Assembly: GCF_026745355.1 (NCBI RefSeq)
Contig: NC_079208.1
Span: 25,839,805-25,903,804, forward strand
DNA from: Beta vulgaris subsp. vulgaris
Taxonomy: Eukaryota; Streptophyta; Magnoliopsida; Caryophyllales; Amaranthaceae
DNA: 64,000 nt
Reading direction: 5' to 3'
The notes below the pieces were generated by a model that saw only the letters and a program-made list of their open reading frames with translations, was not told the DNA's origin and ran no database searches. The translations under genes and the position numbers were made by a program. Positions 11,599-58,139 of this stretch are shown here, one piece after another (the first letter of the stretch is position 1; each line of letters begins with the position of its first letter).

Positions 11599-11607
11599 TT
11601 CATTATA

Positions 11608-11650
11608 GAGAACGTATTGTGTCGGACTCGTCCGACACAACACTCTCGTC
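11608..11650 (+). repeat. Left TIR of the giant MULE
   Basis: Pairs with 36778-36820 in inverted orientation. It contains its own palindrome GTGTCGGACTCGTCCGACAC (11619-11638), so each end could also fold by itself. The right end has the related but degraded GGTCAGACGGTCTAACC. Confidence 0.85.
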
Positions 11651-12049
11651 GGACAACAACATAACAAAAACCAGGCGTTTTATAACGGCCGAAAAAAAAA
11701 CAAAAAGAAACAAAAACAACAGCTTCATCCGCCATTGTTCAACGGGAAATTATCGTACACATCCGCTTTATCCCTGCAAGTAAATCTCATTTCGACATTC
11801 GACTTCTCAATCTAGTTAAAGCAAGAATGTCAACCGAAGATTCGAACTCACAAATCGAAAGTTCATTAAAAAATGAACTAACGAATGAAAAAGGTAACAC
11901 ATATCTCACATTAATCAACAATTTTCACACAGTAACTCAACTTATAAATTCATATCAAAAATTGTTTGATACAGATAGCAGATCAGGAAAAAAAAGAAAC
12001 AAATTAGAAGGATAATCACCTGGAAAAGACGACAAAGAAACAGGTGCAA

Positions 12050-13340
12050 CAAAAATAATTTTCAATTGCATTTACTCATTTTTCAGTTAGCATTTACATT
12101 GTCTCAGTTAGTATGTCTAAATTTTCATTTACAAAAGTCTATTTTTCAGTTAGTCTTCATATTACCATTTACATTGTCTCAGTTACATCTTTTTCCAGTT
12201 AACGTTACTTCTCTTTTCAGTTAGACTTATTTATTTGTCAATTAGCCTTATTTATTTTTCAGTTCGATTTATTCTGTTTTCAGTTGGTCTTCATATGATT
12301 TCATTTAGTATAACCAATGAGACTAAAAATTTTCAGTTAGACTTATTTAGTTTTCAATTAGACTTATTTATTATTCAGTTAGACTTATTTAGTTTTCAGT
12401 TCGTCTTCATATGATTTCATTTAGTCTAACCAATGAGACTAAAATTTTTTCAGTTAGACTTATTTATTATTCAGTTAGACTTATTTAATTTTCAATTGGT
12501 CTTCATATGATTTCATTTAGTATAACCAATAAGACTAAAAATTTTTAGTTAGACAACTATATTTTTCAGTAAGACTTATTTATTTTTCAGTTAGACTTAT
12601 TTATTATTCAGTTAGACTTATTTAATTTTCAGTTGGTCTTCATATGATTTCATTTAGTATAACCAATAAGACTAAAAATTTTCAGTTCGAAAACTATATT
12701 TTTCAGTTAGACTTATTTATTTTTCAGTTAGCCTTATTTATTTTTCAGTTAGACTTATTCTGTTTTCAGTTGGTCTTCATATGATTTGATTTAGTATAAC
12801 TAATGAGACTAAAAATTTTCAGTTAGACTTCTATATTTGTCAGTTAGCTTTATTTAGTTTTTAGTTCGTCTTCATATGATTTCATTTAGTATAACCAATG
12901 AGACTAAAAATTTCCAATTAGACTTCTTTATTTTTCAGTTAGTCTACTTAGTATTTCATTTAGTCTAATGATTCTTTTACTTCATTCTATTCCAATTAGA
13001 CTAAAATAATAAGTTCAGTTAGACCTTTATTTCTCCGTTAGACTTCTTTATTTTTCAGTTGGTCTTCTTATTATTTCATTTAGTATAATGATCCTTTCAT
13101 TTCATTCTTTCAGTTAGGATTTACATTGTTTCAGTTAGTATATCTAAAATTTTCATTTACAAAAGTCTATTCGAATCATACTTATAATTTTCAGTTAGAC
13201 TTATTTGTTTTTCAGTTGGTCTTTATATTATTTCATTTAGTATAGTGATTCTTTCATTTGATACTATTACAATTATTTTCAGCTACACTTGTTTAGTTTT
13301 TAGTTAGTGCTTCTGTTCTTTCAGTTAGTGTCCTTATTTT
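12050..13340 (+). repeat. TTCAGTTAGACTT repeat block, about 120-bp higher-order unit
   Basis: Intron-like DNA between transposase exons built from variants of TTTTTCAGTTAGACTTATTT. A larger unit of about 110-130 bp recurs, each with CATATGATTTCATTTAG followed by a CCAATGAGACTAAAAATTTT phrase (near 12290, 12410, 12510, 12645, 12780, 12870). No coding sequence. Confidence 0.9.
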
Positions 13341-14350
13341 TTGTCAATGAACTCAACAGCTGAACATGAATATCTCAAGTACATCAATGACGAGAATATC
13401 AGTAGCAGTTTAATAGGAAGACATGTTACAGATCACAAAGATGGTTACAACTTGTATCAAGCACACTCAAGAGCATTAGGATTTAGTATTAGGAAACAAA
13501 CTCTAAGGAGGAGGAGAATTGATAATTCTATATACGAATTCTACTTGGTTTGCTCAAAGGAAGGAGCCTCAAAATCAACAAACAAAATAACAGAACCAAA
13601 AGAACAAGACACACAACAAGATCATGTTCAGATACCACATGTTGAGGAGCCAACCAAGGAAAGAAAGGAAAGAGTAGTCAATGAGACAAGAACAGCATGC
13701 AAAGCCATGGTCAAATTTAAGCAAGAAAAACTTGGCCAAGAGCCCAAGACTTTGTTGTAGTAGCTCATGAGTTGCAACACAACCATGAATTCGTAATACA
13801 GCAAGAAATACATCATCTGAAATTAGAAAGAAAGATAACTGAACAAAAAGGCCAACTAATAGAAACAATGGTTGAATTTGGCATAAAGCCAATGCATGCA
13901 TACAACTTTTTGTGTCATGAGGGTGGATCAGAGGAACTAGTGGGCCACACAAAAAGGGACCATCTAAACTATATCACACAGTACAGAACAAGATTGGTTG
14001 AAGGAAAGGATATGCAGAGTGTGTTGGACCTACTTCAGCAAAGAACGGATGATGATCCTGCATTCTTCTACAGGCTGAAATTTGGGGAACATAACAACAT
14101 TGTCAGCTACTTTTGGGCGAGATTTCATGATGTTGGAGGACTTAAAAGCCTATGGAGATGTTATGATATTCGACACCACTTATAGTTTAAACAAATATGG
14201 ACTGATATGTGCACCATTTGTTGGCATAAACTGCCATTGGGAACCAACAATATTTGCATGCGCTTTCATAACTAATGAAAAGGAAGAGAGCTTTGAATGG
14301 CTACTAGAAACATTCGAGAGAGCAATGTGCCAACAAGAGCCAAAGACAAT

Positions 14351-16079
14351 CACTAGTAGAGAAAAGGCAATTTGCGTCGCATGTGAGGCGCCTATTTGCG
14401 TCGGACTATGGTGCGACGCCAAAGCCCTCGACGCAAATGACTCAGAAACGATCTGCGTCGTATACGGAAACGACGCATATGGTTCAGCTATTTGCGTCGC
14501 ACCTTTATACGGTACGACACAAGTGGTTCTCCCTTGCCCAACATAGAGCGGTATTGTGCGTCGCACATTACCTAAGGTGCGACGCAGATAAGTGATTTGG
14601 AAATTTCATTTTTTTAAAAAAAATTTTTTTTTTTTGGAAAAAAAAATTGATTTTATGAACAGAATGAGGCTCTGTGCAAACGCAATCGTAGATTTGAAAT
14701 AATAAATTACAGAAAATAAAAAAAAAGAGATAAGTTACACTCCACAACAATATTGTTTTGATTCTGCACATAGTTTATTAGTGTGACTATCAAAAAATGT
14801 ATTAATAAACTAATTAGAGAAAAATAAACCTAAAAAACAAAATCAGAAGAGAAAATTTAAAAGAAAATCCTAAATTTGAAAACGAAATTAAAAAAATAAT
14901 CAGATCTAACATAAAAAAAACGAAACTAAAAAAATGAACCTAAAAAAACAAGTGAGGAATTACAAACAATGAAGATATTAAACGGCGATTCGATGCTGAA
15001 GATGATGAGAGTTGATGATTCGATGCTTTTCGGGTCGCCGGAATCACAAACAATGAAGATATTATTCAAACATAAACAAAAGTGAAAATAACAATAATTT
15101 AGTGGGCGAAAATAACTAAAAATTACCTGGGACAAGAAGAAGAAGATTTGAGTGTGACAGGAATTTAATGAAGATCTTCGATGCATCAACTCTCAGCATC
15201 TTCAGCATCGAATCAATTAACTGATTATTTTTTCTTCACAATGAAAAATAGGGTAAATTTTAAAGAAAGAAAACAAAACAAGGGTTTTTTTTGTTTTTGG
15301 TTTTGATTTTGATTTTCTCTCTCTTAATTTTATGAGATGATGAAGAAGTAGTAGAAGTGTAATAAAAGCAAAGACTGCAACGCCGCCATTAGCAGCTTCT
15401 TTCTTTGTTTGCTGAAGAAATGTAAATTCTGAATTTAAGACAAAAACAGCAACATCAAAACAGCAAAATTACCAGCAAATTTAAAACTTTCTTCTTTTTT
15501 TTTTCTCTCTCTTACATAGGAGTATTCTTCTTCGTTTAATTTTCTGAAATTTGTGGGTTTTTATGTATTGGGTTTGATTTTGGTTGTGTTATTTTCTCTC
15601 TCCTCTTTATCACTCACTGGTTACTGATAATCAACGACACATGAAGACGAAGACGGAGGAGAATTACAGTTGAGTGAGGGAGAGAGGAGAGAGAGAGAAG
15701 GAGGGAGGGAGAGAGAGATGAAACGGCTGGAGATGAAAATGGAATTACTAATTAGGTTAAGTGAGGGAGAGGGTCAGGGACACGTTTTTACGGTTTGGGC
15801 CCAATGTGCGTCGGATGGTGGACTCGTGCGACGCACATTAGGCTCAATCCCCCAAACTGAGAAGCTCAGTATGCGTCGCACGCGGAGCTAGGTGCGACGC
15901 ACAAGGTAATTTGCGTCGCACTTACATACGGTGCGACGCATATTGCTCGTATGCTGATATGAATATTGATGTTTTGTGTCGAGTGCTCTTTGTCATGCGA
16001 CGCACAAAGGTAATTTGTGTCACTTCGGTGTCTGTGCGACGCAAATCCGGGGACGCAAATCATCTTTTTTCTACTAGTG
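14351..16079. mobile_element. Non-autonomous CACTA element
   Basis: 1,729 bp bounded by CACTAGTAGAGAAAAGG at the left and the inverted CTTTTTTCTACTAGTG at the right, with the 3-bp target duplication AAT (14348-14350 and 16080-16082). Both subterminal regions (14367-14590 and 15800-16060) are full of TTTGCGTCGCA / GTGCGACGCA words in both orientations, the usual transposase-binding clusters of CACTA ends. The middle is AT-rich and has no transposase. It sits inside the transposase exon of the host MULE and so is younger than that gene. Confidence 0.95.
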
Positions 16080-16189
16080 AATTTTCACTGATCAAGATAA
16101 GGCGATGGGCAATACAATTGAAAAGGTATAAATAACATAAACTCACACAACTGAATACAAACATGTCAATTTGTAATTATTTCTATCAT

Positions 16190-16730
16190 TTCAGTTGCGT
16201 GTCTTACTGATTCATTTCAAAGATCTACTCTTTCACTTAGATTAAAAAGCATTCAAATGTAAATTTTTTAGTTAGCATTTACACTGTTTCAGTTAGACTT
16301 ATTTATGTTTCAGTTGGTCTTCATATTAGTTCATTTAGTATAATGATTCTTTCATTTCATTCTATTCCAATTAGACTACAAATTTGCAGTTAGCATTTAC
16401 ATTGTTTCAGTTAGACTTATTTATTATTCAGTTGGACTTCATATTACTTCCTTTAGTCTAATGATTCATTCATTTCATTCTATTCCAATTAGACTAAAAA
16501 TTTTCAGTTAGCATTTACACTGTTTCAGTTAGACTTCTTTATTTTTCAGTTGGACTTCATATTACTTCCTTTAGTCTAATGATTCATTCATTTCATTCTA
16601 TTCCCATTAGACTAAAAATTTTCAGTTAGCATTTACACTGTTTCAGTTTGACTTCTTTATTTTCCAGTTGGACTTCATATTATTTCTTTACTCTTTCAGT
16701 TAGATTCACAAGCATTCAAATGAAAATGAA
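16190..16730 (+). repeat. Second TTCAGTTAG block (transposase intron)
   Basis: Three units of about 115 bp with TTTAGTATAATGATTC/TTTAGTCTAATGATTC, ATTCTATTCCAATTAGACTA and TTTCAGTTAGACTT phrases. The same unit appears at 34930-35745 near the other end of the element. Confidence 0.88.
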
Positions 16731-17524
16731 TTGTAGCATAATATGTACTATCTTAAAACAGGTTTTCCCAAATTCAAGACATAGGCTTTGCCTTTGGCAT
16801 ATAGAGAAGAACTTTGTAAACCACTTCGGATCCCTCAAGACCAATGAAGACTTCAAGAACATGTTCAAGAACTGCTTGATGGGGTGTCAAAATGAATCAG
16901 GCTTTGAAGAATTATGGACGAAAATGATGGAAATGTATGGACACGAGAAAAAGGAATAGTTCGATCAAGTATATGACCAGAGACACAAGTGGTGCACCGC
17001 GTTAAATAAGGATATGTTTTCAGCTGGAATCTTATCATCACAAAGAAGTGAAGTCACAAACAAGGCAATATCATTCAATGCAAAAGCAACAACAAACTTG
17101 TTTGAATTCTACCATATATTTGAGCAAACAGTGAAGAGATGAAGAAGCAATGAAACTAGCGATAACTTCCGGAACAGAACCGAACGTCCCAAAGCTGTCA
17201 AATCCAAGTCAAAGCTTCTGAAACATGTATTTGATGTATACACACTAGCACTGTATAATGACTTTGAAACAGAATATGAGTGGGCAATGTCATCCTTTTT
17301 ACGAGCATTTGCAACCTGAAGTTGTTTGAAGTCTCACCAGAAGAAGATTTCAGCAATTTAGCAGAATTAGTGTGCTCATGTCAATGCTTCACAGAGACCG
17401 GGATGCTTTGCTTTCACATCATAAGGGTCATGCACATGTTCAGCATATTTCAAATCCCAGAACAATATATCCTTAAGAGATGGACAAGACTTGCAAAGTC
17501 AGCAGTATAGGAGAATGTCCAAGG

Positions 17525-17935
17525 TTAGTGAAATAAATTAATATAACTAACTGACAAATTAATGTAACGAACTGAAAAAATAAAGATTCCAACTGAAACA
17601 ATTTTCAGATCACCTGAAACATTTAGTTAGTCAACTGAAAAATAAAAGGCTCCAGCTGAAAAAGTAGTATAACTAACTGATCAATTAATGTTACTAACAG
17701 AAAATTAATTGGGGGTTTTGCGGGTTTTGTTTGTGTGTGGGAGGGGGGATTTTGGTGGAGTGGGGTTTAACACTTAACTAACTAAAACAATTAAGACACC
17801 ACCTGAAATAATTTATCAACTATCTGATAAATTTAGTTAGCCAACTGAAAAAAGTAAAGCTCCAACTGAAACACTTTATCAACTAACTGAAAAGTTTTGT
17901 TCGCTAAATGAAATAATTGACTAAGAAAATGTTAT
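17525..17935 (-). repeat. Inverted-orientation CAACTGAAA / CTAACTGAA block
   Basis: Here the words read AACTAACTGAAA and CCAACTGAAAC on the plus strand, the reverse complement of the earlier blocks. It lies between the SWIM-encoding exon and the last exon. Confidence 0.8.
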
Positions 17936-18349
17936 TACAACAGACAAGGACCAAAGCCAAAATGACTGTTATGCACACCATGGAGACAAGCAATAACCAA
18001 GAATTTCTACATCCTAGTGTCAATATGTCAATCAAATGAAGAAGCAAGAAAATTATGTGACAATTCGTTGAAGGACTTATATAAATCGGTAAAAGAAGTT
18101 TTCAAGACTGATCAAGAAAAACAACAAGAAGTCGAAGACGAAGAACTACGAAGACAGACAGTTGAAAATCCTGAGGTGATAAAGACAAAAGGAAGACCTC
18201 CAAAGGGAAACAAGATAGTAAAAGGACATTTTGAGAAGCGTAAAATCAAGACAAGGCATCCGAATGAATATGGAACAAAAACCCCACATGTACCTGAAGT
18301 TGAATAGTGTAAAAATAATATTATTTTTCAATTGTATTCCAGTCACTAA

Positions 18350-18740
18350 TTGTATTCAAATTTACACTTGTTTATTTTTCAGATACTCGAGATTCAGTTA
18401 GTTATATTAGTATTTATAGTGCTTCAGTTAGACATGTTTATTTTTCAGCTAGTCTTTATAGTACTTCAGTTAGCCTTGTTTATTTTTCAGCTAGTCTTTA
18501 TAGTGCTTCAGTTACACTTGTTTATTTTTCAGGTAGTCTATATAGTGCTTTAGTTAGACTTGTTTGTTTTTCAGCTAGTCTTTATTGTGGTTCAGTTAGA
18601 CTTGTTTATTTTTCAGCTAGTCTTTACAATCCTTCAGAGTGACTTCTTTGTTTTTCATCTAGTCTTTATTATGCTTCAGTTAGACTTGTTTATTTTTCAG
18701 CTAGTCTTTAAAGTGCTTCAGTTAGACTTAAAATTTATAT
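18350..18740 (+). repeat. TTTTTCAGCTAGTCTTTATAG repeat, about 56-bp unit
   Basis: About six units of roughly 56 bp alternate GACTTGTTTATTTTTCAGCT with AGTCTTTATAGTGCTTCAGT. It lies just past the transposase stop, between the two convergent genes. The same unit recurs at about 22340-22440. Confidence 0.9.
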
Positions 18741-19317
18741 TCCGCTCAAAGCAAGTGTAAATATACAATTCTAAAAATAAAAAATATCAATTAACTTGTG
18801 TGCTATTTCTACTGTACATTACAAAATTGAGTTGTGTGCTATTTCTACTGTACATTACAATAAAAAATATAAAAAAATGCAGTTTGGCAACTAAGAATAA
18901 CGAAAATTCAAAAGTTTCTCTAATTTGACTTTGTCTTCAAAGTGATGATTCAACATGTCTTCAACTTCCTCCTCGTGCTGCCTCATTCGCTCTAAAATTC
19001 GTGCTTCTTTTCTATTTGTCCTCTTTGATTGATTAAATGCTAATTTACTTAGAACAACCTCTTTTTCCTTTCTTAACTTCTGTCTTGCCATAAGTTGAGG
19101 CTTCGTTGCTGACCAAAGATAGCAATCATGCTTCACTTTGTCCTTCAACTTGTTTATAGGATGCTCCACTAGTCGAAGTGCAAGCTTGCACCGCTCAAGG
19201 TTTTTGGTGGCTGCCTGTAAAATAAAAAAAATCAACACTATTAAAAAAATTTCAAAAACTAGAAATCTAACAAGTATAAAATTCTGCCTAAAAACAATAA
19301 AGTTATCATACCCTTTT

Positions 19318-19851
19318 CAGGTCAACAAGTGGAAACTCATTAGCATTTTGACCATCATACAACTCCATTGACTTGATTGCATACACACCACAATCATTAT
19401 TGTTGTCCTTATTTCTCCAAGGGAAAAACAGAGTCACATTACCCCAATGTTGGAGATGATCAAAATCACGACATCTCATATTAACTTGCATAAAAGAATC
19501 AAAAGCACGACAATGCATTTGAAGATGAAAAAGTAAAGAACAATTATAAAACAAGTAATAAAATAATGGAACAAAAAATAATCCAAATGCTCATAAAAAG
19601 GTACGTACAAAGTATGTAAGACCGTTAAATCCCTCATGCTTATATCTATTAATATCCTTCATGTATGTACGATTGTCAATGTTTTCAATCCTTTTAGCTT
19701 TCTTGTTGAGCACCAAAACAGTGTAATGATCATCTTTGTGAACGGGAACAAAAATCTGAAAATACACATAAGATACAAAAGCAATAAGTCTACCTGAAAG
19801 AGAACAAAGAAGTAAATGAAATACTAACAACACTAGCTGAAACCAAAACAT
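19318..19851 (-). other. C48 peptidase catalytic core exons
   Basis: Two exons carry the triad. The upstream one (about 19760-19606) has HKDDHYTVLVL and ENIDN; the downstream one (about 19554-19319) has WGNVTLFFPWRN and NDCGVYAIKSMELYDG. The exon 19238-18891 adds a Lys/Glu-rich coiled tail (MARQKLRKEKEVVLSKL). The core is better preserved than the transposase. Confidence 0.85.
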
Positions 19852-19854
19852 ACA

Positions 19855-20170
19855 CTAACTGAAAGATTAAAACAACTAACTGAAATATTTATATACACTA
19901 ACTGAAGTAGAAACATACACTAACTGAAATAGAAACATATATTAACTAACAAGAAAAACAAACTAAATGAAAATTAAACTATTACTAACTGACAAGAAAG
20001 ATAAACTAACTGAAACATAAACTAATACTAACTGACAAGTAACATACACTAACTGACAAGAAACATACACTAAATGAAACATAAACTAATACTACCTGAC
20101 ATGAAACATACACTAACTGACAACAAACATACACTAAATGAAACATGAACTGATACTAGCTGAAATCAAA
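19855..20170 (-). repeat. Minus-sense TTCAGTTAG block in a Ulp1 intron
   Basis: Short units of 25-40 bp combine ACTAACTGAAA, ACTAACTGACAAG and GAAACATACA. On the Ulp1 gene strand this reads TTTCAGTTAGT, the same sense relation as in the transposase introns. A similar block is at 21380-21790. Confidence 0.85.
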
Positions 20171-21379
20171 AGGAATAAAAAAATGGTAAACAATAATACA
20201 ATCCAACTAACCAGTTCAGCTTCTCAAATATCATTCCTTGGAAATGCTTTCACCCATGCAGAAATAGCCTCCTTACATTTATTGAAGAATAAATCATCAT
20301 CTTTTGTACCCAACTTTTTCTTCTTCTCTTCCCATTCTTTCAACTTCTCATCATATTCACTAGTTCCCTCCAGCTTCTTCAACATAATCTCATTTTCGGC
20401 AATTTCACTATCAGACTTAACCTTGTTTTACCTTCTATTCACACATCCAATTGATATAGTTCTGCAACAAAAGAAAAGAGATACTAAATAACCAACTGAA
20501 AACAGAATATGACAAACTGAAAAACAGAAGATGACCAACTGAAAAAAATAATATGACCAAATGAAAACAGATGTATCAAACAAAATGAAAAGAGAATATG
20601 ACCAACTGAAAAATAAAACTAAGCCATAACACTAAACACTTACAAAAGGTATCAAATTAAACCAGAATCTCCTCGTTGCAGAAGGTGATTCCTCTTCTTG
20701 CCTATTAAACATACATCAATAACTCCACTAGTCAACCAACCTTGACGAGGCATGCTAACAAAGTCAAACTTGTACAACTGAACCGAGTAGTTGCTATGAG
20801 GATTCTCAAAGTCCACAATGAGATCATTTGTTAGATCACTTTGCAGAATATAATTTCTCGTCTTTGTATCTTCAGACTCTGGATCCAATGACAGTATTGA
20901 AACGTCATCAAACTCATTGTAGAAGAGATAATCAACTAGCAACACGTTCTCAGGAGAGAGATCACTCAGGTACTTGTTATATTGTTGCAAGCTTCGACAC
21001 AAGATCATGCCATGATTATTGACAGGGATAGCCTGCAAACCAGATGCAGAAGAAGAAGTAACACCAGCTACATCTCCAATATTTTTCTCCTCATCCTCTT
21101 CTTTTTGGGCTCATCAGAATCAACTCCTTGTGTACAAATCCTGTCAATGAGGTTATCCAAACTTTCATCCCCAGAATTATCAACTTTTTCCTCAACTCTC
21201 AAAACTTTCTCAGATTTCTCCGAAGTATGGTCATAGTCCCACCCCTTCAATAATTCAGGTGTTGAAGGAATTTATGACTTTGAATGTTTCTGAGGTATGT
21301 AGGATTTGTATGATGATTGATCAGTTGAAGAGCCATCACCCTACATTGCATCAAAATATGAAAAAAATACTTAAACAAA

Positions 21380-21790
21380 AATGACAGATATACTAACTGA
21401 AACATAAACAAATAATAACTGACAAGAAACATACACTAACTGAAATAGAAACAGATACTAACTGACAAGAAACACAAACAAATGAAAAATAAACTATTAC
21501 TAACTGACAAGAAAGATACACTAACTGAAATATAAAATAATACTAACTGACAAGAAACATACACTAAATGACAAGAAACAAACACTAACTGACATGAAAC
21601 TTACACTAACTGAAACATAAACTAATACTAACTGACAAGAAACAAACACTAACTGACAAGAAACATACACTAAATGAAACATAAACTAATACTACCTGAC
21701 AAGAAACATACACTAACTGAAATAGAAAGAAATATTAAATGAGAAGAAACATACACTAACTGAAACAGAAAAATAAACAAATTAAAACAC
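21380..21790 (-). repeat. Second CTAACTGAC/GAAACATACA block
   Basis: Repeats alternate ACTAACTGACAAGAAACATA and CACTAACTGAAACATAAAC with little spacing. It lies in an intron of the Ulp1 gene. Confidence 0.85.
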
Positions 21791-21817
21791 AAACACACAA
21801 ACAAAAACTATACTTAC

Positions 21818-23700
21818 TCAAGGATATTTTACATTAACTGGAGTGATCATTGGAATTGAACTTCCAACACCCTCACCACTGTCTGCACTGTCTGCAAATC
21901 CAACATCCTCAACAACAGGACTTGGAGTTAATAGTTGGAATGAAGGGCCACTGAAATCAGGTATCTTTTTCCTTTTAGCAGAAGAATCAACTCTCCAAGA
22001 CTTTCTACTATATACGTTCTCAACAACTTCAACAACGGGAGGAGGAGTAGGAGTACAAAGATCAACAAGCTCAACACAGCGGTGCGAGTAGGATATGTGT
22101 AGAACTCTTATCCTTATCCTTATCCTTAGCCTCTTTAAGTTGATCATCATCAGCATTCTTAGTCTTCGTATCATCTTCCTTTGGTTTTCTTTCTCAACAT
22201 CTTCATTCAAAAACAAAAACAATAAAAAATAAATAGAAAAAGTTTCATTTGGTATTTATATGATATTTAGTTGGTATTAATATTATTTCAGTTAGAGTAT
22301 CACAGTTTTCAGTTGGTCTTTTTATTCTTTCAGTTTGACTTGTTTATTGTTCAGCTAGTCTTTATAGTGCTTCAGTTAGACTTGTTTATTTTTCAGCTAG
22401 TCTTTATAGTACTTCAGTTAGCCTTATTTATTTTTCAGTTCGTTTTCATATTGTTACAAACTGAATATTTCAGTTGGTATTTATAAGATATTATTTCTTT
22501 TAGATTATCACAGTTTTCAGTTGGTCTTTGTATTCTTTCAGTTAGCTATAAAATCAAAGAAACTTACTTCCTCCTTTCTCTCCATTTGCATGAACCCCAG
22601 CATCCAAATCTTTATTTCCTCCTTTCTCTTTATCTCCTTGAAGACCACCATCATCAGCAGCATTGCCAGTCTTCTTATCATCTTCCTTTGGTTCTTTCTC
22701 ATCATCTTCATTCAAAAACAAAAACAATAAAAAAAAATCTAAATACACAAGAACTGAAAAACACAAAATCAAAAATGAATCAATTCATTGACAAACTGAA
22801 ACAATTTTTCCACCAGATGAAATAAAAACAAATAGCAAAAGTTTCATTTGGTATTTATATGATATTTAGCTGGTATTAATATTATTTCAGTTAGAGTATC
22901 ACAGTTTTAGTTGGTCTTTTTATTCTTTCAGTTAGCTATTTAACTTTTTCATTTAAACAAATGTATTCCACTCAAATGAAACAATGTCTCCACCAGATGA
23001 AACACTCCAACAATCAAATTAAAACAATACAATAAAAGAACTTCCTTCCTCCTTTCTCTCCATCTCCATGAACACCAGCATCCAAATCCTTATCTCCCCC
23101 TTTCTCTTCATCTCCTTGAAGACCAGCATCATCATCATCAGTATCATCCTGCTTTGTCTCATTATAATTCTGGTGATCCTTATCATCACCATCATCATCA
23201 TCATCATCATGATCATCATCATCTTTAAGCTGATCATCATCAGCATTCCTCTTCTTCTCATCCTCCTCTTCTTCTTTTTCATCATCTTCATTCAAAACAC
23301 AAAAACAATAAAAAACAAGCTAAATACACAAGAACTGAAACAATGTTTCCACCAGATGAAAAAAAAAATCAATCAACTGAAAACATCCAGCAATCAAATG
23401 AAAACTTGATTGAAATAAAAACAAATAGAAAATTTTCATTTAGTATATATCTAATTTTCAGCTAGTGTTGATATTATTTCAGTTAGAGTGTCAAAGTTTT
23501 CAGTTGGTCTTTTTATTCTTTCACTTACCTATTTAACTTTCTCATTTAAACAAATGTATTCCACTAAAATTAACAATAATTTTTATTCCAACCAGATTAA
23601 AAACTACAACAATCAAATGAAAACAATATAATGAAAGGAACTTACTTCCTCCTTTCTCTTCACCTCCATGAACACCTAACCAAATCAGGAACATCTTCAT
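21818..23700 (-). repeat. Tandemly repeated acidic exon-plus-intron module
   Basis: At least three copies of an exon and its flanking intron are arranged head to tail, about 500-585 bp apart. Exon starts (minus sense, LNEDDEKE or LNEDVEKE) lie near 23293, 22712 and 22210. Exon ends (DAGVHGDGEKGG, DAGVHANGEKGG) lie near 23045 and 22568, with a related end (VHGGEEKGG) near 23650. The copy at 23041-23293 is extremely acidic, with long Asp runs. The introns between share a long TTTCATTTGGTATTTATATG segment. It expands a disordered acidic linker of the Ulp1 protein. Confidence 0.8.
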
Positions 23701-24857: not shown

Positions 24858-27800
24858 TGTAACAACCCGAATTTCCCCACCAGCTTACAAAGGATTAGGC
24901 ACAGCGAAAGAGACACTAGTCGAGGTAACTTGGACTATTACCATCACACTCACCGAACAACATCGGAGAGTGTGGAACTCAATTCCCAACTCTATTCAAA
25001 TAAATTAACTATTATAACTACGCTCTGATTCTCAAACTCTATTCTCATAAATTTCTACAGAAAATCCGGCAGAGTTTCCTTTGAAAATAGGACAACGCTA
25101 AAGCGAGAAATAATATGAACCTGTTGCAATTTTCAATTTATAAAATATTTCCAAATCCCAAAGCTCAACAATCTCAACGCTTTCGCGGAGCAACAACCAA
25201 TAGAGAATCAGGAGCACTAACTAGCGACTCTTAAATGTAGAAATAAATTATAGAAAATAAACAATTAACTATTACAAAGTCAAGCGTCCTCACTTCGATA
25301 GCAACTATAATACTGCTCCAACTTGTATTAGTTTCAACTTGCAAAAGGATAACTCACGGCTTCAACCTGAAACATTTAAGATACTGCCACCCACCAAGTG
25401 ACAGGCCACAGAAATGACAAAACAACATATACACATCAGCAAAGCTGAGTACTAACCCGTAAACAAGAGTAACACATGCTTTGGTGGTTTTTACTTGAAA
25501 ACGACTCTCACACAATCAACATAAGTTTAACAATCACACCAATAATAGCATACTTTGCAGCAATATTCTTGTTGAACATACATATTACATTTCCAAAATT
25601 CCACGTTCCATAATACTTCATCAATCATATAGTAACAAAATTCAATAAGACGACTCTCAACAATGACACGTTTTTATATTCTCATTTAATCAACCTTTCA
25701 ACTCAGTTACTATATTTTCACAAAATCCGATCGTTTGGCATGAACGCGAGTGGAGAGGGGTACCACGCAGTACCAGCTGTCTCCAAACTAGTGACGGTCG
25801 TCACCCAGCCTTTTATTATTATGCTTGCAAGACTTACCCGGACATGTCCTATAACGCCAGGGATTAGCCCCTCCTGGAAGGCAACAGCTAGGGACTCTAC
25901 CCGCCCTAACTCGGGGTGCCTATTCATGCCTCACTTTCATATTTATAAAATAAGATATTTTATGATTCATACTTGAATCCTCAATACTCATAACATAACA
26001 CCATATTCGACCTTATCTGGTCTTAACTCATATTTGAATCATTTCCTCATTATCATACCAAATCATATTTTCAGAAACATAGTATTTTCGAAAAACTCCA
26101 ATGACTGAACAAAAAGAATACTTTTACAATAATCCAATAGCAATTCACAACTAATTCATAGAGATGTATCTATAATCATGGCTATTACCACAAACGATAT
26201 ATGATATCCAAAATTCAATATAACGCACACAGGAGCATTTAAATATATATTGCTGAACATAAAGGTTACATTCACTCTATAACAATTATGCGAAACCTCA
26301 AAGCATGATGACTTGATTTCCCATGTCATCTTGAATTATATACGTCTATATAGCCATCCTCCAACAATCACCTCAAAATAACATCGGTACTCAATAACCA
26401 AATTTAGACTAATCTAAACTATAAAAACGTAATCGTAACTTATTCTCAATTCACAAATGATCAACCTTTAACATTCTAATTTCCTTAATCCTTAATTAAT
26501 ATCTATAACTTCGATGATATTAGCTACATCGAATTGCATCCCAATTCATAATCACAATTCCAAATTATATAACTAACCCAACTAAACATAACTCACAACC
26601 TTACCTCAATCAAGAACATAATTTTGCTACCACAAATATATTAAGAATATGAAGCTAGCTCGACTCATAAATAAACCTCAATAAACTTATTTTGATCTTG
26701 CACTCAAATCCTTAACCAATCGAATAACAATTCCAATATTATAATCTCCTTCATGATCCCCAATGATACTCCATTCAAAATCATCCTCCACTAATCAAGA
26801 CTATTAAAGTGATTAGCAACTTGTATCCAACCTAGTCATTTCCCCTGTAGATAACCATAATCGTCTAATTCTTATAAAGACATATTTCAAATCGACACAT
26901 ATATGCTTTTCAAATTCCAATTATCAACATAAACACAACTGGAAGTAATTAATCATGTCAACAAATCCCACAACAATATTACTAAGTCTCTTAGTTACAA
27001 TTAACTAACGAGAGTTAACCAAAAACACACAATTCAAGTTTCATTGATCATATGTTAATTATAAGTAACTAAATATAATCCAAGTTATACCATTAGCTGA
27101 GTTCTTGTTAACATAAACAGTAATAGAACTAAGTACATATCATACTCATGGTCATACATAGCGAGTTTATCTCATTAAAACAATGTCATTATCTAAGTGG
27201 GACTTCTTCAAGGTAATTCTTAACTCACTTTGATTTATGTAGTTAAACACACACACTAATTCGCTTTAGTGAATCACTAGTCAAGTAGTCTGACTTTATC
27301 ATCTTATTTCATTTATAGTTATCAAACTAAATTACTTTATTAACCACATTTTCATTAATCGAATCCATAGTTAATGAAATAAACTCAAGTACTCTTCACA
27401 TTACTAATAAGGACTAATTAATTCTCTTTCTAACTTAATATGAGAAAACTAATTAAACACATGAGCATCATACACTTCTTAATTACTATTCGTTTAACTT
27501 ATACTTCAACCATAAACTTGGATTACTACCACATTTATTAGAAATTTTCTATCAACATTAAACTAAAGATATTTGAACTACTTCTTACTAACTCATAGCA
27601 TCACAAGTCTAGTCAACCTCCCATATATAATTCATCAATCACTTATAATAATAACTTCTTAATATATAAACTAGATTGCAATTATTAATGGAATTATTCC
27701 TTCGAACACACATGAGCCTAAATTTAATAATACTAATAACATTTCATTCATCGAGATCTGCAAGCTTATATAACTCAGTTGCATTAAGAGTTTCAATTTG

Positions 27801-28922
27801 CATCTTTCTTTTCCTTCTCAAAGTTAAGGTGGACATGAGTTGCAAATCAACTATGTCAAAAAAAAACAAAGAGACACAACTCAACTTAGAGAATAAAGCT
27901 CAACTCAATAACTTATTTCAATTGTAATTTAACTAAAACAGAACTATAATCAGATTTAATCATAAGAGGACTCAAAGAGAAACTTGTGCAATGTTAAAAT
28001 CAAAACCCACAATCAATAACACATAATCATACAACTACAACATCAACAATATCAACACCAAATCTTGAAATGAAACAAAATCCAATTCTAGGTTAACTCA
28101 CTAAAATCTGATTTAGGTTCAACTTGAAAGAAATTAACAACGTAATTAAACTTGTATGTAATCAGAATTTCAAGGGGGGGAAATACAGAGGTGCGGGTGT
28201 ACCTCTGCTCTTGTGAGCAGCGAAGAACACGGAGGGGAGATGGGCCTCCGACGAGTGGTGACGGAGAGCCGGCAAGGGTGGACCACAGCACGACGCCAGC
28301 GACGAGATTTCGGTGGCTGTTTGTCGATTCTCGATGCAGCAACAAGCCACAACAAACCACGAACTAGAGGAGAGAGAAACACGGGACAAGGGAGGGAACC
28401 ACCACAGCACCAACAACAACTCTGACAGCAACTGCGACGGGGCAACACCGCGCATCAGCGGCGAAGAAACGACGAGCAGGGGAGGCCGACGAGAAGGCAC
28501 GCGAACAGAGGAGAGAGAGTGTTTCGAAGGAGGAGAGAGAAAACGCGAGCAATGGGAAAAGGTTCGACAACAATTCCGGCAGCATCACCGGCGAGGAAAC
28601 GCCGCGAAATACCGGCGAGGAGGAAGGAAGGGGAAGAGAGAGAATTTGGGGATTTGGGGTTTCCTTTGGGTTTTCTCACGGCAAGATAGAGAGGAAAGAA
28701 AGGGTTTGGCTGGGGTTTTGTTTCATTAAGCAAACCGACAAATGAAGGGGGTATTTGGGGTTTATCCAACCGACCACCGACCAAGGAAAATGGGGAGTTA
28801 AATTGGTTTTGGTATTTTTCACAATAACCGACAAAGGGTTTTGGGTTTTGGTTTCTATTTTGGCAAAATTCAACTAAACTAATTCACATAAAACTAAATA
28901 TATTAATTACTACTACTACTAC

Positions 28923-28979
<57 letters not shown>

Positions 28980-29145
28980 TAATAATAATAATAATAACTC
29001 CATAAAGTTAAATAAATAAATACATTACAGCACGACAAAATAATTCATACTCCAACTCAAATAAAATAAGAATTTTCGAAACATAATTAACTTAATAATT
29101 ATAATTATCATTTAAATAAAGACTCTTAAAAACAGGGCTATTACA
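24858..29145 (-). repeat. Left LTR (3' LTR in element sense), 4,288 bp
   Basis: Near its right part is a GC-rich leader (28150-28770) and a TAA trinucleotide tract (about 28909-28996). Frames in the leader are broken relative to the other LTR, which argues against a translated product. Confidence 0.93.
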
Positions 29146-29710
29146 CTCTACCACCCTTAAAATAAGTTTCGTCCTCGAAACTTACAAATAATTATTTTCA
29201 TAAAACCAAATCTCAAGCTCGCAAGACATTATGCGTCCAGCCTCCATTCTACCATCATCTTCTGATTCTCTACTTCAACTTGATACGCGAAATCAAGGAG
29301 CAAAGAAAATCTCTACTTCGACTTGACTCGCAATATCAAGGAGCAAAGAGCAAAAGGGGCAAACTTGTTGGCATTGGATTTCAATCATCTCACGACAGAG
29401 ATCTCGTTTGAAATTAATTTACTTAAGCAAATCATACAAGTTTTCTCGAAATACACACTTTTAAGTAAAATAATATCATGAACAATCAAGTCATAACAAG
29501 ATAATAATATACACATTAGCAAATATACACACACTTAATACCCATTTAAATAAATGGATTCATATAGTACACGCGTAAGCGCAAACACTCATACGGCTTG
29601 ATTCATTTATACCTAACTCTTTAGTCAATTCATTAGACCTATATTCAACCCCTACACTATGATGTGGAGATCACAGTGTATCCAAAAACTACTCAAGCTC
29701 TGATACCACT
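29146..29710 (-). other. Non-coding interior of the LTR element
   Basis: Only 565 bp. It holds the primer binding site next to the right LTR, the polypurine tract next to the left LTR, and AT-rich spacer. No domain of gag, protease, RT or integrase is visible. Confidence 0.9.
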
Positions 29711-32700
29711 TGTAACAGCCCGAATTTCCCCCAGCTTACAAAGGATTAAGCACAGCGAAAGAGACTCTAGTCGAGGTAACTCGGACTATTACCATCACAC
29801 TCACCGAACTAAATCGGAGAGTGTGGAACTCAATCCCAACTCTATTCAAATAAATTAACTATTATAACTACGCTCTGATTCTCAGACTCTATTCCATAAA
29901 TTTCTACAGAAAATCCGGCAGAGTTTCCTTTGAAAATAGGACAACGCTAAAGCGAGAAATAATATGAACCTGTTGCAAATTCAATTTATAAAATATTTCC
30001 AAATCCCAAAGCTCAACAATCTCAACGCTTTCGCGGAGCAACAACCAATAGAGAATCAGGAGCACTAACTAGCGACTCTTAAATGTAGAAATAAATTATA
30101 GAAAATAAACAATTAACTATTACAAAGTCAAGCGTCCTCACTTCGATAGCAACTATAATACTGCTCCAACTTGTATTAGCTTCAACTTGCAAAAGGATAA
30201 CTCACGGCTTCAACCTGAAACATTTAAGATACTGCCACCCACCAAGTGACAGGCCACAGAAATGACAAAACATATACACATCAGCAAAGCTGAGTACTAA
30301 CCCGTAAACAAGAGTAACACATGCTTTGGTGGTTTTTACTTGAAAACGACTCTCACACAATCAACATAAGTTCAACAATCACACCAATCATAGCATACTT
30401 AGCAGCAATATTCTTGTTGAACATACATATTACATTTCCAAAATTCCACGTTCCATAATACTTCATCAATCATATAGTAACAAAATTCAATAAGACGACT
30501 CTCAACAATGACACGTTTTTATATTCTCATTTAATCAACCTTTCAACTCAGTTACTATATTTTCACAAAATCCGATCGTTTGGCATGAACGCGAGTGGAG
30601 AGGGGTACCACGCAGTACCAGCTGTCTCCAAACTAGTGAGGGTCGTCACCCAGCCTTTTATTATTATGCTTGCAAGACTTACCCGGACATGTCCTATAAC
30701 GCCAGGATTAGCCCCTCCTGGAAGGCAACAGCTAGGGACTCTACCCGCCCTAACTCGGGGTGCCTATTCATGCCTCACTTTCATATTTATAAAATAAGAT
30801 ATTTTTGATTCATACTTGAATCCTCAATACTCATAACATAACACCATATTCGACCTTATCTGGTCTTAACTCATATTTGAATCATTTCCTCATTATCATA
30901 CCAAATCATATTTTCAGAAACATAGTATTTTCGAAAAACTCCAATGACTGAACAAAAAGAATACTTTTATAATAATCCAATAGCAATTCACAACTAACTC
31001 ATAGAGATGATCTATAATCATGGCATTACTATAAACGATATATGATATCTAATATTCATATAACGCACACAGGAGCATTTAAATATATATTGCTGAACAT
31101 AAAGGTTACATCACTCTATAACAATTATGCGAAACCTCCAAGCATGATGACTTGATTTCCCATGTCATCTTGAATTATATACGTCTACATAGCCATCCTC
31201 CAACAATCACCTCAAAATAACATTCGATAATCAATAACCAAAATTAGACTAATCTAAACTATAAAAACGTAATCGTAACTTATTCCCAATTCACAAATGA
31301 TCAACCTTTAACATTCTAATTTCCTTAATCCTTAATTAATATCTATAACTTCGATGATATTAGCTACATCGACTTGCATCCCAATTCATAATCACAATTC
31401 CAAATTATATAACTAAACCAACTAAACATAACTCACAACCTTACCTCAATCAAGAACATAATTTTGCTACCACAAATATATTAGAATATGAAGCTAGCTC
31501 GACTCATAAATAAACCTCAATAAACTTATTTCTATCTTGCACTCAAATCCTTAACCAATCGAATAACAATTCCAATATTATAATCTCCTTCATGATCCCA
31601 ATGATACTCCATTCCAAAATCATCCTCCACTAATCAAGACTATTAAAGTAATTAGCAACTTGTATCCAACCTAGTCATTTCCCCGTAGATAACCATAATC
31701 GTCTAACTCTTATAAAGACATATTTCAAATCGATACATATATGCTTTTTAAATTCCAATTATCAACATAAACACAACTGGTAGTAATTAATCATGTCAAC
31801 AAATCCCACAACAATATTACTAAGTCTCTTAGTTAAATTAACTAACGAGAGTTAACCAAAAACACACAATCAAGTTTCATCGATCATAGGTTAATTATAA
31901 GTAACTAAATATAATCCAAGTTATACCATTAGCTGAGTTCTTTTAACATAAACAGTAATAAAACAAGTACATATCATACTCATGGTCATACATAGCGAGT
32001 TTATCTCATTAAAACAATGTCATTATCTAAGTGGGACTTCTTTCAAGGTAATTCTTAACTCACTTTGATTTATGTAGTTAAACACACACATAATTCCTTT
32101 AGTGAATCACTAGTCAAGTAGCGACTTTATATCTTATTTCATTTATAGTTATCAAACTAAAATACTTTATTAACCACATTTCATTAATCGAATCCATAGT
32201 TAATGAAATAACTCAAGTACTCTTCACATTACTAATAAGGACTAATTAATTCTCTTTCTAACTTAATATGAGAAAACTAATTAAACACATGAGCATCATA
32301 CACTTCTTAATTACTATTCTTTTAACTTATACTTCAACCATAAACTTGGATTACTACCACATTTATTGGAAATTTTCTATCAACATTAAACTAAAGATAT
32401 TTGAACTACTTCTTACTAACTCATAGCATCACAAGTCTAGTCAACCTCCCATATATAATTCATCAATCACTTATAATAATAACTTCTTAATATATAAACT
32501 AGATTGCAATTATTAATGGAATTATTCCTTCGAACACACATGAGCCTAAATTTAATAATACTAATAACATTTCATTCGTCGAGATCTGCAAGCTTATATA
32601 ACTCAGTTGCATTAAGAGTTTCAATTTGCATCTTTCTTTTCCTTCTCAAAGTTAAGGTGGACATGAGTTGCAAATCAACTATGTCAAAAAAAAACAAAGA

Positions 32701-33745
32701 ACACAACTCAACTTAGAGAATAAAGCTCAACTCAATAACTTATTTCAATTGTAATTTAACTAAAACAGAACTATAATCAGATTTAATCATAAGAGGACTC
32801 AAAGAGAAACTTGGGCAATGTTAAAATCAAAACCCACAATCAATAACACATAATCATACAACTACAACATCAACAATATCAACAACAAATCTTGAAATGA
32901 AACAAAATCCAATTCTAGGTTAACTCACTAAAATCTGATTTAGGTTCAACTTGAAAGAAATTAACAACGTAATTAAACTTGTATGTAATCAGAATTTCAA
33001 GGGGGGGAAATACAGAGGTGCGGGTGTACCTCTGCTCTTGTGAGCAGCGAAGAACACGGAGGGGAGATGGGCCTCCGGCGAGTGGTGACGGAGAGCCGGC
33101 AAGGGTGGACCACAGCACGACGCCAGCGACGAGATTTCGGTGGCTGTTTGTCGATTCTCGATGCAGCAACAAGCCACAACAAACCACGAACTAGAGGAGA
33201 GAGAAACACGGGACAAGGGAGGGAACCACCACAGCACCAACAACAACTCTGACAGCAACTGCGACGGGGCAACACCGCGCATCAGCGGCGAAGAAATGAC
33301 GAGCAGGAGGCCGACGAGAAGGCACGCGAACAGAGGAGAGAGAGTGTTTCGAAGGAGGAGAGAGAAAACGCGAGCAATGGGAAAAGGTTCGACAACAATT
33401 CCGGCAGCATCACCGGCGAGGAAACGCCGCGAAATCGCGACGAGGAAGGAAGGGGAAGAGAGAGAATTTGGGGATTTGGGGTTTCCTTTGGGTTTTCTCA
33501 TGGCAAGATAGAGAGGAAAGAAAGGGTTTGGCTGGGGTTTTGTTTCATTAAGCAAACCGACAAATGAAGGGGGTATTTGGGGTTTATCCAACCGACCACC
33601 GACCAAGGAAAATGGGGAGTTAAATTGGTTTTGCTATTTTTCACAATAACCGACAAAGGGTTTTGGGTTTTGGTTTCTATTTTGGGCAAAATTCAACTAA
33701 ACTAATTCACATAAAACTAAATATATTAATTACTACTACTACTAC

Positions 33746-33808
<63 letters not shown>

Positions 33809-33968
33809 TAATAATAATAACTCCATAAAGTTAAATAAATAAATACATTACAGCACGACAAAATAATTCATACTCCAACTCAAATAAAATAAGAATTTTC
33901 GAAACATAATTAACTTAATAATTATAATTATCATTTAAATAAAGACTCTTAAAAACAGGGCTATTACA
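29711..33968 (-). repeat. Right LTR (5' LTR in element sense), 4,258 bp
   Basis: Near-identical to the left LTR. Its GC-rich leader on the minus strand has a 205-codon open frame (32989-33606) rich in Ser, Pro and Leu, absent as one frame from the left copy. A longer TAA tract lies at about 33736-33822. Confidence 0.93.
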
Positions 33969-34647
33969 TAAACAAATCATCCCAATGTTTTTTAGCAATG
34001 TATGGCTTCTTGGGATTAGAAATATCAAGGAACCTATGCCAATCCCTCCTGGCACTTCCAGCCTCCCCCGGACTACCTTTCCTCCTAAAGGCATCATCAT
34101 CAATAACCTCAACTGGTTTATCTGATACATGTATACCCAAAACATCACTAATGGTAAACTTATTAAAAATCACTTTACCATTCTTGGTCGAAAACATCAT
34201 TCCGGAAGCATTATAATTCAACAACAACTCCAAATTCAGATTGGGACATAACTTCTTTATCCTAATATCTAGAAGACTGCCAAACCCAATTTCCCTAATC
34301 TCTCTTTTCAGCTCATCACTGAAGTTACTAACAACTTCATGTAAATGAAAATAGTCTGACAATACTTGTAGACTAATAGAATTCATTTCTTGCTCAGTCA
34401 AATTCCTAAGAAAAGTGAACAAAAATAAATTAAAAAAAAGAAACAATCATATCATATAAAAGGAGAATAATGAAAAAATGTACGATCTATCAAAAGTGTC
34501 TTTCTGTTCATCTGGATTAGACCTTGAAAATGAAAACTTCACTGGTTATAAATCAGCTTTGCCTTTCTTCTTAGACAATGATTTATCACATCTGAAAGAA
34601 AGAAAGTTTAATCAAATAATAAGACTAACTGAAAACAAGCAACAACA

Positions 34648-34905
34648 TCAACTGAAAGAAGACCAACATCAACTGAAAGAATACAAAGTTCAACTGAAAG
34701 AATACAAAGATCAACTGAAAGAAGACCAACATCAACTGAAAGAATACAAAGAGCAACTGAAAGAATACAAAGAGCAACTAAAAGAAGACCAACATCAACT
34801 GAAAGAATACAAAGAGCAACTGAAAAAATACAAAGATCAACTGAAAGAAGATCAACATCAACTGAAAGAATACAAAGATCAACTGAAAGAATACAAAGGT
34901 CACTT
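34648..34905 (+). repeat. 21-bp minisatellite CAACTGAAAGAATACAAAGA
   Basis: About twelve head-to-tail 21-bp units, of two kinds: CAACTGAAAGAATACAAAG(A/T)(G/T) and CAACTGAAAGAAGACCAACA. The plus-strand frame 34478-34918 reads this as 7-residue units QLKEYKE and QLKEDQH. The array lies in an intron of the minus-strand Ulp1 gene, so I call DNA repeat, not protein. Confidence 0.92.
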
Positions 34906-34929
34906 CTTTTTCAGTTAGATTTATTTATT

Positions 34930-35745
34930 TTTCAGTTGGTCGTCTTTTCTTTCATTTACTATAATGATTCTTTCATTTCATTCTATTCCAATTACACTTA
35001 AAATTTTCAGTTAGAATTTACATTGTTTCAGTTAGACTACTTTATTTGTCAGTTGGTCGTGTTAATTTTTGATTTAGTATAATGATTCTTTAATTTCATT
35101 CTATTCCAATTACACTTAAAATTTTCAGTTAGAATTTACATTGCTTCAGTTAGACTTCTTTATTTTTCAGTTGGTCGTGTTATTATTTCATTTAGTATAA
35201 TGATTCTTTCATTTCATTCTATTCCAATTACACTTAAAATTTCCAGTTAGAATTTACATTGTTTCAGTTAGACTTCTTTCTTTTTCAGTTAGACTTCTTT
35301 ATTTTTCAGTTGGTCTTGTTATTATTTCATTTAGTATAATGATTCTTTCATTTCATTATATTCCGATAAGACAAAAATTTCAGTTAACATTTACATTGTT
35401 TTAGCTAGACTTCTTTATTTTTCAGTTGGTCGTCTTATTCTTTCATTTAGTATAATGATTCTTTCATTTCATTCTATTCCAATTACACTTAAAATTTTCA
35501 GTTAGAATTTACATTGTTTCAGTTAGACTTCTTTATTTTTTAGTTGATCGTCTTATTCTTTCATTTAGTATAATGATTCTTTCATTTCATTCTATTCCAA
35601 TTAGACTAAAAATGTTCAGTTAGAATTTACATTGTTTCAGTTACACTTTTTTATTTTTCAGTTACACATATTTATTTTTCAGTTGGTCTACTTATTATTT
35701 CATTTAGTATAATAATTCTTTCATTTCATTCTATTGCAATTAGAC
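34930..35745 (+). repeat. About 118-bp tandem array of the CAGTTAG family
   Basis: About seven units, each with TTTAGTATAATGATTCTTTC, ATTCTATTCCAATTA, then TTTCAGTTAGAATTTACATT and TTTCAGTTAGACTTCTTTAT. The unit matches the blocks at 16300-16680 in the other arm. From 35750 to 36270 the words reverse orientation (CAACTGAAAGAA, CAACTGAAAACG). Confidence 0.92.
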
Positions 35746-36777
35746 TAAAAATTATCAACTGAAAGAATACAACAATCAACTGAAAGAATACAAAGATCAA
35801 CTGAAAACGACAAAAAAACAAAGAAAAAAAAATCAAAAACACCAAATGAAAGGTAGAAATGTCTAAATGAAAGAAAAACAACATCAACTGAAAGAATAGA
35901 AGAAGCAACTGAAATAATACAAGAATGAACTAAAAGAATATAAATATCAACTGAAAACGTCAAAAAATCATAGAATAACAAAATAAAAAAGACCAAAGGA
36001 AAGAAATAAATGTCTAAATGAAACAAAAACAACATTAACTGAAAAAATATGTGAATAATACAAAACAACAATTATAACACACCAAAAAAAGAACAAAATA
36101 TGTAAATGAAACAAAAACAACATCAACTAAAACACAAACCCTAACAAAATGAAATAAATACAATAATCAACTGAAAACGTCCAAAAATAGAAAAAAACAA
36201 AATCAAAAACACCAAATAAAAGGTAAAAATGTCTAAATGAAAGAAACACAACACTAACTGAAAACAATTACACTAAGAACTTGAAATATACCTTGGATCA
36301 TAATCACCATCTTTCTCTTTCTTCTTCCTTGCAGTAGACACAACCAAAATTTTTCCTGAAGATGTGGCAGTCTTCACCTTCTTCGACTTCGGGCTACATT
36401 ACAATTACAACAACAAAACACTAAGAATTTGAAAAAAAAAAAAAATATTTGCAGCAAAAATCAAACCAAATTATACCTAGAATCATCATCTCTGATCCTC
36501 TTCACCATATTTGCGATGCAACAGTAATGAATTACGAACAAAAAAACAAGCTAAATTTCAACAACAGAGAATCAGAGAAGCAGAAAAATTCTAGAAATAA
36601 TCACTAATTAATATAGAAGAATCAGTTTTAAAACTAGCGAGAATCAAGCACAAACTAAATAAAAAACAGTTTCAAAATCGTAAAAAGATATAACCTAATA
36701 ACCGTTAAATGTTTTTCTAAAAAACAAACAAATATGAAAAAAAAGCCCGCGCGCGTTTTGATGGGCTCAGCCCGTCC

Positions 36778-36820
36778 GACGGAAGGTATTGGGTCAGACG
36801 GTCTAACCCAATACTTCCAC
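36778..36820 (-). repeat. Right TIR of the giant MULE
   Basis: Inverted partner of 11608-11650; the outer 35-40 bp align with substitutions. The Ulp1 gene's first exon begins about 270 bp inside this end. Confidence 0.85.
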
Positions 36821-36903
36821 TTCATTATATCCCTCTACTCTCAAGTGTTGGCATGTGTAGATGGACTTGCTAACATGCAGTAGGTGATAGTTCATTAGGG
36901 TTT

Positions 36904-58050: not shown

Positions 58051-58139
58051 AGGATCCGACGATGCCATGATTGTGAAAATTATTCTAAGTGAAAGATCTA
58101 GGGGCATGGAAACAAAACCTTATGGATACAAACAAAAGA

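Follow-up and report, generated by a model that had tools for sequence, protein, structure and literature searches.

A Mutator-like element filled with its own word

The DNA discussed here, which we call the window, is a 64,000-nucleotide stretch of Beta vulgaris subsp. vulgaris (NC_079208.1, positions 25,839,805 to 25,903,804, forward strand). It holds a Mutator-like element (MULE) that encodes a FAR1-type transposase and a convergent accessory gene of Ulp1 type, and that carries arrays of a short word, TTCAGTTAG, in its non-coding DNA (Table 1); these arrays may be a self-recognition code comparable to those read by the VANC proteins of Arabidopsis VANDAL elements. The element is flanked by a 9-bp target duplication, TTCATTATA (11599-11607 and 36821-36829), and alignment of its two ends shows that it terminates in imperfect terminal inverted repeats (TIRs) of about 50 bp; TIRs together with a duplication of 8-9 bp, as expected of FAR1/Jittery-type elements, are found both here and in the L019 element described below.

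Table 1. Features of the MULE in the window (positions count from the first base of the window)
Feature	Position	Strand	Basis
MULE of FAR1/MULE-domain type, with nested inserts	11608..36820	+	target duplication on both sides; ends compared
Left TIR, imperfect, partly self-palindromic	11608..11657	+	end alignment
Word array before first transposase exon, 5' non-coding; 47 words of the type, the usual spacing being 21 bp	12050..13340	+	
Transposase gene, approximate exons 13355-14350, 16083-16128, 16753-17522, 17944-18307	13355..18307	+	domain matches; exon limits partly by eye
Nested CACTA-type element, duplication AAT, word-free	14351..16079	.	ends read; 0 words at up to one mismatch
Word array, transposase intron, 118-bp higher-order repeat	16140..16730	+	
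Word array, transposase intron, opposite orientation	17525..17935	-	
Word array downstream of transposase gene	18310..18760	+	
Convergent accessory gene, Ulp1-type, split by the long terminal repeat insert and word-filled introns	18897..36515	-	matches to beet homologues
Word array, accessory-gene intron	19780..20180	-	
Short word array	20460..20640	-	
Word array, accessory-gene intron	21340..21800	-	
Word array, small further groups up to 24240	22240..22560	+	
Nested long terminal repeat (LTR) element, duplication TAAAC, 4.3-kb LTRs 98% identical, no exact words	24858..33968	.	
Word array, long 5' intron of accessory gene	34600..34905	-	
Word array, long 5' intron of accessory gene, opposite orientation	34905..35755	+	
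Degenerate word array, long 5' intron of accessory gene	35755..36290	-	
Right TIR	36771..36820	-	end alignment

Every exact copy of TTCAGTTAG in the window (64; 50 forward, 14 reverse) lies between 12 and 37 kb and in non-coding DNA of the MULE (8031 bp), with none in its coding sequence (6338 bp, an approximate figure, exon limits having been partly set by hand) and none in the nested inserts; at up to one mismatch the counts become 163, 4 and 2, respectively. Expressed as densities at that same stringency, two parts of the MULE have 10.3 and 10.5 copies per kb (the left part counted with its CACTA insert), the CACTA element 0, the LTR insert 0.22 and the flanks 0.17 and 0.33, with a reversed-word control giving 0-0.68. 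Twelve random 10-kb stretches of the genome were also drawn, of which one was all N and was dropped; the remaining 11 hold 0 or 1 exact copy each at 30-42% GC, on which ground we reject AT-richness as the cause of the word density. An earlier, sequence-only reading of this DNA had described word blocks that fill the non-coding DNA of the element and are nearly absent from nested elements and flanks, which agrees with these counts; a high density in unrelated genome DNA, which it named as evidence to the contrary, is not seen in the 11 stretches. The blocks that it listed are likewise found, the list itself being incomplete, with additional small blocks near 20.5, 22.9, 23.45 and 24.2 kb.

Among 187 neighbour spacings of a wider word type (CAGTT, CATTTAG, CAGCT, CAATT) over 14 blocks, 105 are of exactly 21 bp, and the linkers vary from block to block while this step holds; the arrays are tandem, with a 21-bp unit in which TTCAGTTAG is the constant portion. 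Twenty-one base pairs make two turns of B-DNA. The element has, as in the VANC and KIU systems, a private short motif repeated in tandem in its own non-coding DNA, the orientation of which flips from block to block independently of gene direction; a role as a splice signal was rejected on that account. Two other candidates were also put aside: an open reading frame on the + strand (34460-34918), considered as a coiled-coil gene, which falls within an intron of the gene on the other strand and in which the 21-bp unit makes seven codons, and locus L012, seemingly rich in CAGTT, in which a 5-bp repeat underlies the signal.

The transposase and its convergent neighbour

Matches to FAR1 (4.2e-11) and MULE (7.4e-15) domains identify the window transposase, with no SWIM domain found in the pieces of it that were scanned; the transposase of sister locus L017 carries all three, and taking the two together we count the family as having the FAR1, MULE and SWIM set of FAR1/Jittery-type elements. 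Both the transposase and the accessory frames of the window copy are broken in places, and the first exons of the accessory gene (36478-36515 and 36284-36400) were placed by eye. Its Ulp1 part, the mark of the KIU subgroup, we accept through a beet homologue, P0002, which matches PF02902 (Ulp1-type peptidase) at 2.5e-5, above the cut-off of that domain; against PDB sequences the accessory protein gives weak matches, the best (E 0.25) to SENP2. No Pfam domain was found in the N-terminal part, for which the predicted structure was poor (mean predicted local distance difference test score, pLDDT, of 34). Three protein searches, each scoring only candidates with exact words in common with the query, returned relatives named as Beta vulgaris in 9 of 9, 13 of 14 and 1 of 1 cases, the one exception bearing no name.

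The accessory N-terminal domain also has matches of almost equal strength (34%) at C12:41229346, C1:6676085, C11:34695282 and C1:46643182, none of them with a listed FAR1-type transposase match nearby; other carriers of this domain may exist.

The word across the genome and the nature of BvMSat05

Exact pairs of TTCAGTTAG at the 21-bp step number 2291 + 2892 = 5183 in the whole genome (reversed-word control, 0), and pairs at any gap of 1-31 bp number 3522 + 4367 = 7889 (control, 18), so that the 21-bp step accounts for about two thirds of pairs where about 3% would be expected of an even spread over 31 gaps. Among 100 pair sites listed there are several linker families with a common word and step. 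A pattern for the family TIR occurs 1175 + 1199 times (control, 0; a palindromic end scores once per strand), and over C1 0-16.1 Mb, the stretch common to both listings, 21 of 23 word clusters lie within 10 kb of such an end and 19 of 23 within 1.5 kb, as against 4.5% and 0.8% of random positions. Many of the C1 clusters sit in gene-less elements of about 1 kb, and 11 of 19 short TIR-TIR intervals in that stretch contain an exact word pair.

Two relatives illustrate the range of these copies. L019 is a gene-less element of 1304 bp with both TIRs, a 9-bp duplication (TTAAATTAT) and three word arrays; the C5 copy (loci L002, L003 and L016) is free of both nested inserts, has a 9-bp duplication of its own (TATACTTAA, by reading), carries 106 exact copies of TTCAGTTAG and shares 84-92% identity with the window copy over the alignment rows printed, rows below 84% being omitted. 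A genome search with the transposase gave 153 matches, among them 18 listed copies that tie at 448.6 bits, and a word-pair cluster overlaps one of these (C1:5803134). A lack of the word in relatives, which the sequence-only reading named as evidence against itself, is thus not seen in either the C5 or the C1:5803134 copy. The word is confined to the main MULE family and to its non-coding DNA, and is kept in a gene-less copy.

Two side observations concern local copies. More ends of the main TIR family lie just downstream of the C5 copy (joined C5 stretch ~23751-25695, L016), for which reason we place gene-less copies beside it. Word arrays at C1:5784061-5786563 and C1:5802641-5805139, 18.6 kb apart, have almost the same word positions, which suggests that a MULE copy was recently duplicated locally.

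BvMSat05 was described in 2010 as a beet minisatellite with a 21-bp monomer and an unexplained, conserved palindromic flank of 50 bp, and was ascribed to slippage beside palindromes or to breakage-fusion-bridge cycles (PMC2820488). The 50-bp flank matches the end of the L019 element exactly, and the outer 28 bases of the left TIR in the window are identical to it; the best BvMSat05 unit has one mismatch in L019 and three in the window. BvMSat05 is an array of the TTCAGTTAG family and its 50-bp flank is a MULE end: what was published as a minisatellite is explained here as the cargo of a transposon family.

Sister families and their words

We read 13 sister FAR1-type MULE loci, picked by us from a match listing, with transposases that are 34-51% identical; adding the window and C5 copies makes 15 loci, which a FastTree phylogeny divides into five transposase clades (support 0.994-1.000). 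A de novo search for enriched words found TATAGTGTA, with a 20-bp step, in six loci belonging to a single clade, AAAGTAACC in two loci (in L018 most copies have unlike flanks), AATGTACATT in two others (L022 and, weakly, L028) and no clear word in the remaining three. Exact word counts are nearly diagonal over the clades, with 0-3 off-family copies among MULE loci and 0-3 in random 10-kb stretches, and the words follow the transposase clades. A different motif in each of several related families is what the VANC and KIU systems show; in beet there are four words over five clades, one of them without a clear word. The suggestion, made from the sequence alone, that each family would have its own word is correct for four clades (one weakly) and fails for the fifth, in which GTGACCACT was tried as a word and dropped, because each locus has 3-4 copies of it, similarly placed. 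In L022 and L028, AATGTACATT is palindromic and is dispersed around transposases without a detected accessory gene.

One sister element (L027+L017+L026) is about 14.2 kb long, measured between ends that weakly resemble TIRs (67% over 75 bp, E 0.007), and repeats the plan of the main family, with a FAR1-MULE-SWIM transposase, a convergent accessory gene and 233 copies of TATAGTGT in a single orientation throughout. Its accessory N-terminal domain is 27% identical to that of the main family (E 1e-18), its transposase 43% and 49% identical to those of the window and C5 copies, and of the two genes it is the accessory one that evolves faster. Of 16 sister transposases at 39-51% identity, 12, in three clades, have a convergent accessory match no more than 15 kb away, and none of the 10 listed at 33-35% has one, positions being taken from genome match listings that score only the best candidates; counting the main family, the gene is present in four of five clades.

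As a separate observation, an F-box-like frame (L017:580-1035, - strand; PF12937, 1.6e-6) lies between sister word arrays, upstream of the transposase, and is possibly a captured gene.

Constraint on the word

With units placed by their neighbours and conservation then compared block by block, 18 of 23 main-family blocks (p 0.011; two more blocks, of the C5 copy, held too few units to be used) and all seven sister blocks (p 0.016) show higher conservation in the word than in the linker. Anchoring the units on the linker produces no reversal, the linker being better conserved in only 1 of 4, 2 of 6 and 0 of 7 blocks. This pattern favours selection on the word, with the proviso that blocks belonging to the same element are only partly independent.

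A proposed model and its rivals

Synthesising these findings, we lean, if not heavily, towards a model in which the arrays would be family-specific binding platforms for an element-encoded protein that protects the family's own copies from silencing; the likeliest candidate for this binding is the Ulp1-type accessory protein, through its N-terminal part. We infer binding, the identity of the reader and anti-silencing by analogy. With sites two helical turns apart, the protein would sit on one face of the DNA, and would cover the copies of its own family densely, autonomous and gene-less alike, with little binding elsewhere; once there it would remove silencing marks from those copies, as VANC and KIU do from theirs, and a possible target of the Ulp1 part at the bound copies is SUMO or a conjugate of that kind. 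Word and protein would drift together, such that sister families become separate codes. We consider the accessory protein the likelier reader because it varies faster than the transposase and fits the VANC/KIU plan. Sasaki et al. (2022), the primary KIU paper, reportedly describes both a helical periodicity of the motif and a role for gene-less copies, in which case the beet arrays would have their step of two helical turns in common with KIU.

Several observations weigh against this model. The clade of L023, L024 and L033 has no clear word in the DNA read and an accessory match beside only one of three transposases; the L022/L028 clade has a word and an accessory match beside none of its 10 listed transposases, and therefore word and accessory gene are not strictly coupled. 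No DUF1985 or DUF287 match was found with Pfam in the accessory protein, the Ulp1 part of the L027+L017+L026 accessory is recognised by eye only, from a DCGVY segment with no Pfam match, and 8 of the 19 short TIR-TIR intervals lack an exact word pair.

Because these two clades fit poorly, the transposase remains a serious rival as reader: its FAR1 domain would recognise the word, which would provide internal sites that aid the transposition complex or recruit transposase to copies of the family. A related transposase is present in all five clades, the words track its tree, the L022/L028 word occurs without a detected accessory gene and the arrays are kept in gene-less copies, all as this alternative would have it; we nevertheless think it unlikely, given that the TIRs, where a transposase must act, are free of the word (by reading), that the arrays occupy introns far from the ends and that the reader in VANDALs is a separate protein (PMC5735166). 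A neutral minisatellite, its 21-bp units spread by slippage and unequal exchange and carried passively as proposed for BvMSat05 (PMC2820488), appears to us quite improbable. Tandem arrays do expand and shift easily, and local variants such as CTTCAGATAG have spread together, but word and step persist while linkers diverge, the same step and word recur in many separate blocks in both orientations, AAAGTAACC is mostly dispersed and the exons contain no exact word. That the arrays are an intron or chromatin signal for host factors (splicing, nucleosome exclusion or matrix attachment) is very unlikely indeed: the unit has a splice-acceptor-like TTTTCAG, is AT-rich and phased, and introns hold most blocks, but orientation is untied to gene direction, arrays also fill a gene-less element, and the different words in sister families of one genome would call for several host factors.

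Returning to the accessory-protein model, its closest parallels are VANC21 and VANC6 of Arabidopsis VANDALs, which are also encoded in MULEs; VANC proteins bind short words in non-coding tandem repeats, including introns, that are private to a family and differ between related families, with a variable accessory gene beside a better conserved transposase (PMC5735166, PMC10398659). The beet system is unlike these in that its element is FAR1-type, has TIRs, though imperfect, and has no detected DUF1985 or DUF287. Some VANC genes carry Ulp1, namely KIU (Kaonashi), again with a private motif in the non-coding DNA of a MULE (PMC13317346); the beet case is set apart from the KIU one by its FAR1-type transposase and by several sister codes in one genome. 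VANDALs form MULE group 45, for whose transposases SWIM or CCHC, but not FAR1, is tabulated (PMC6446971), which sets the beet element apart: by its predicted transposase domains it is not a VANDAL, because the transposase is FAR1-type. The sequence-only description of the system as VANDAL-like is apt for a private motif that differs between families, and not for the transposase.

MURA, which acts on MuDR terminal repeats, and TnpA of Spm are also element-encoded and relieve methylation of their own families; they are described for terminal repeats (MURA) or Spm activation, and not for intron-wide words (PMC10398659). In the literature that we searched, which covers few subscription journals, we found no report of a word code in a FAR1-type MULE or of BvMSat05 as a MULE array. 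Kochia belongs to the same plant family as beet. A mobile element with an FHY3/FAR1 gene is linked to the EPSPS duplication of Kochia, and resembles the beet element in being mobile and in carrying a FAR1/SWIM gene with further genes (PMC6808082).

A wider proposal, which we offer tentatively and regard as rather doubtful, is that FAR1-type MULEs of this one genome hold at least four separate self-recognition codes, read by one drifting accessory DNA-binding fold, and that a VANC-type code is older and wider than VANDALs. An AGT core, noticed post hoc, is common to three beet words (cAGTtag, tAGTgta, aAGTaacc) and two published VANC motifs (yAGTattay, AGTtgtcc); the fourth word, AATGTACATT, is without it, and belongs to the clade without an accessory match.

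If the accessory-protein model is true, sequence-specific anti-silencing would not be confined to VANDALs and would have arisen, or persisted, in a second lineage of MULE transposases, and a single crop genome would offer several natural word-protein pairs for the study of word recognition by such proteins and of code divergence, questions that the VANC paper names as future work (PMC5735166). The case of BvMSat05 also suggests that transposon ends are worth seeking beside other 20-21-bp plant minisatellites.

Other features of the window

Merely ~0.57 kb separates the two LTRs of the nested element at 24858-33968, which is probably a non-autonomous and recent insertion. In the right flank, direct repeats at 40084-42131 and 47659-49739, more than 98% identical and about 7.6 kb apart, are probably the ends of another LTR element. 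A degenerate 43-bp tandem array also lies at 58128-58466, with a unit core, CTCCTAAGCAAGAGTATAAA, that is unlike the MULE word in sequence.

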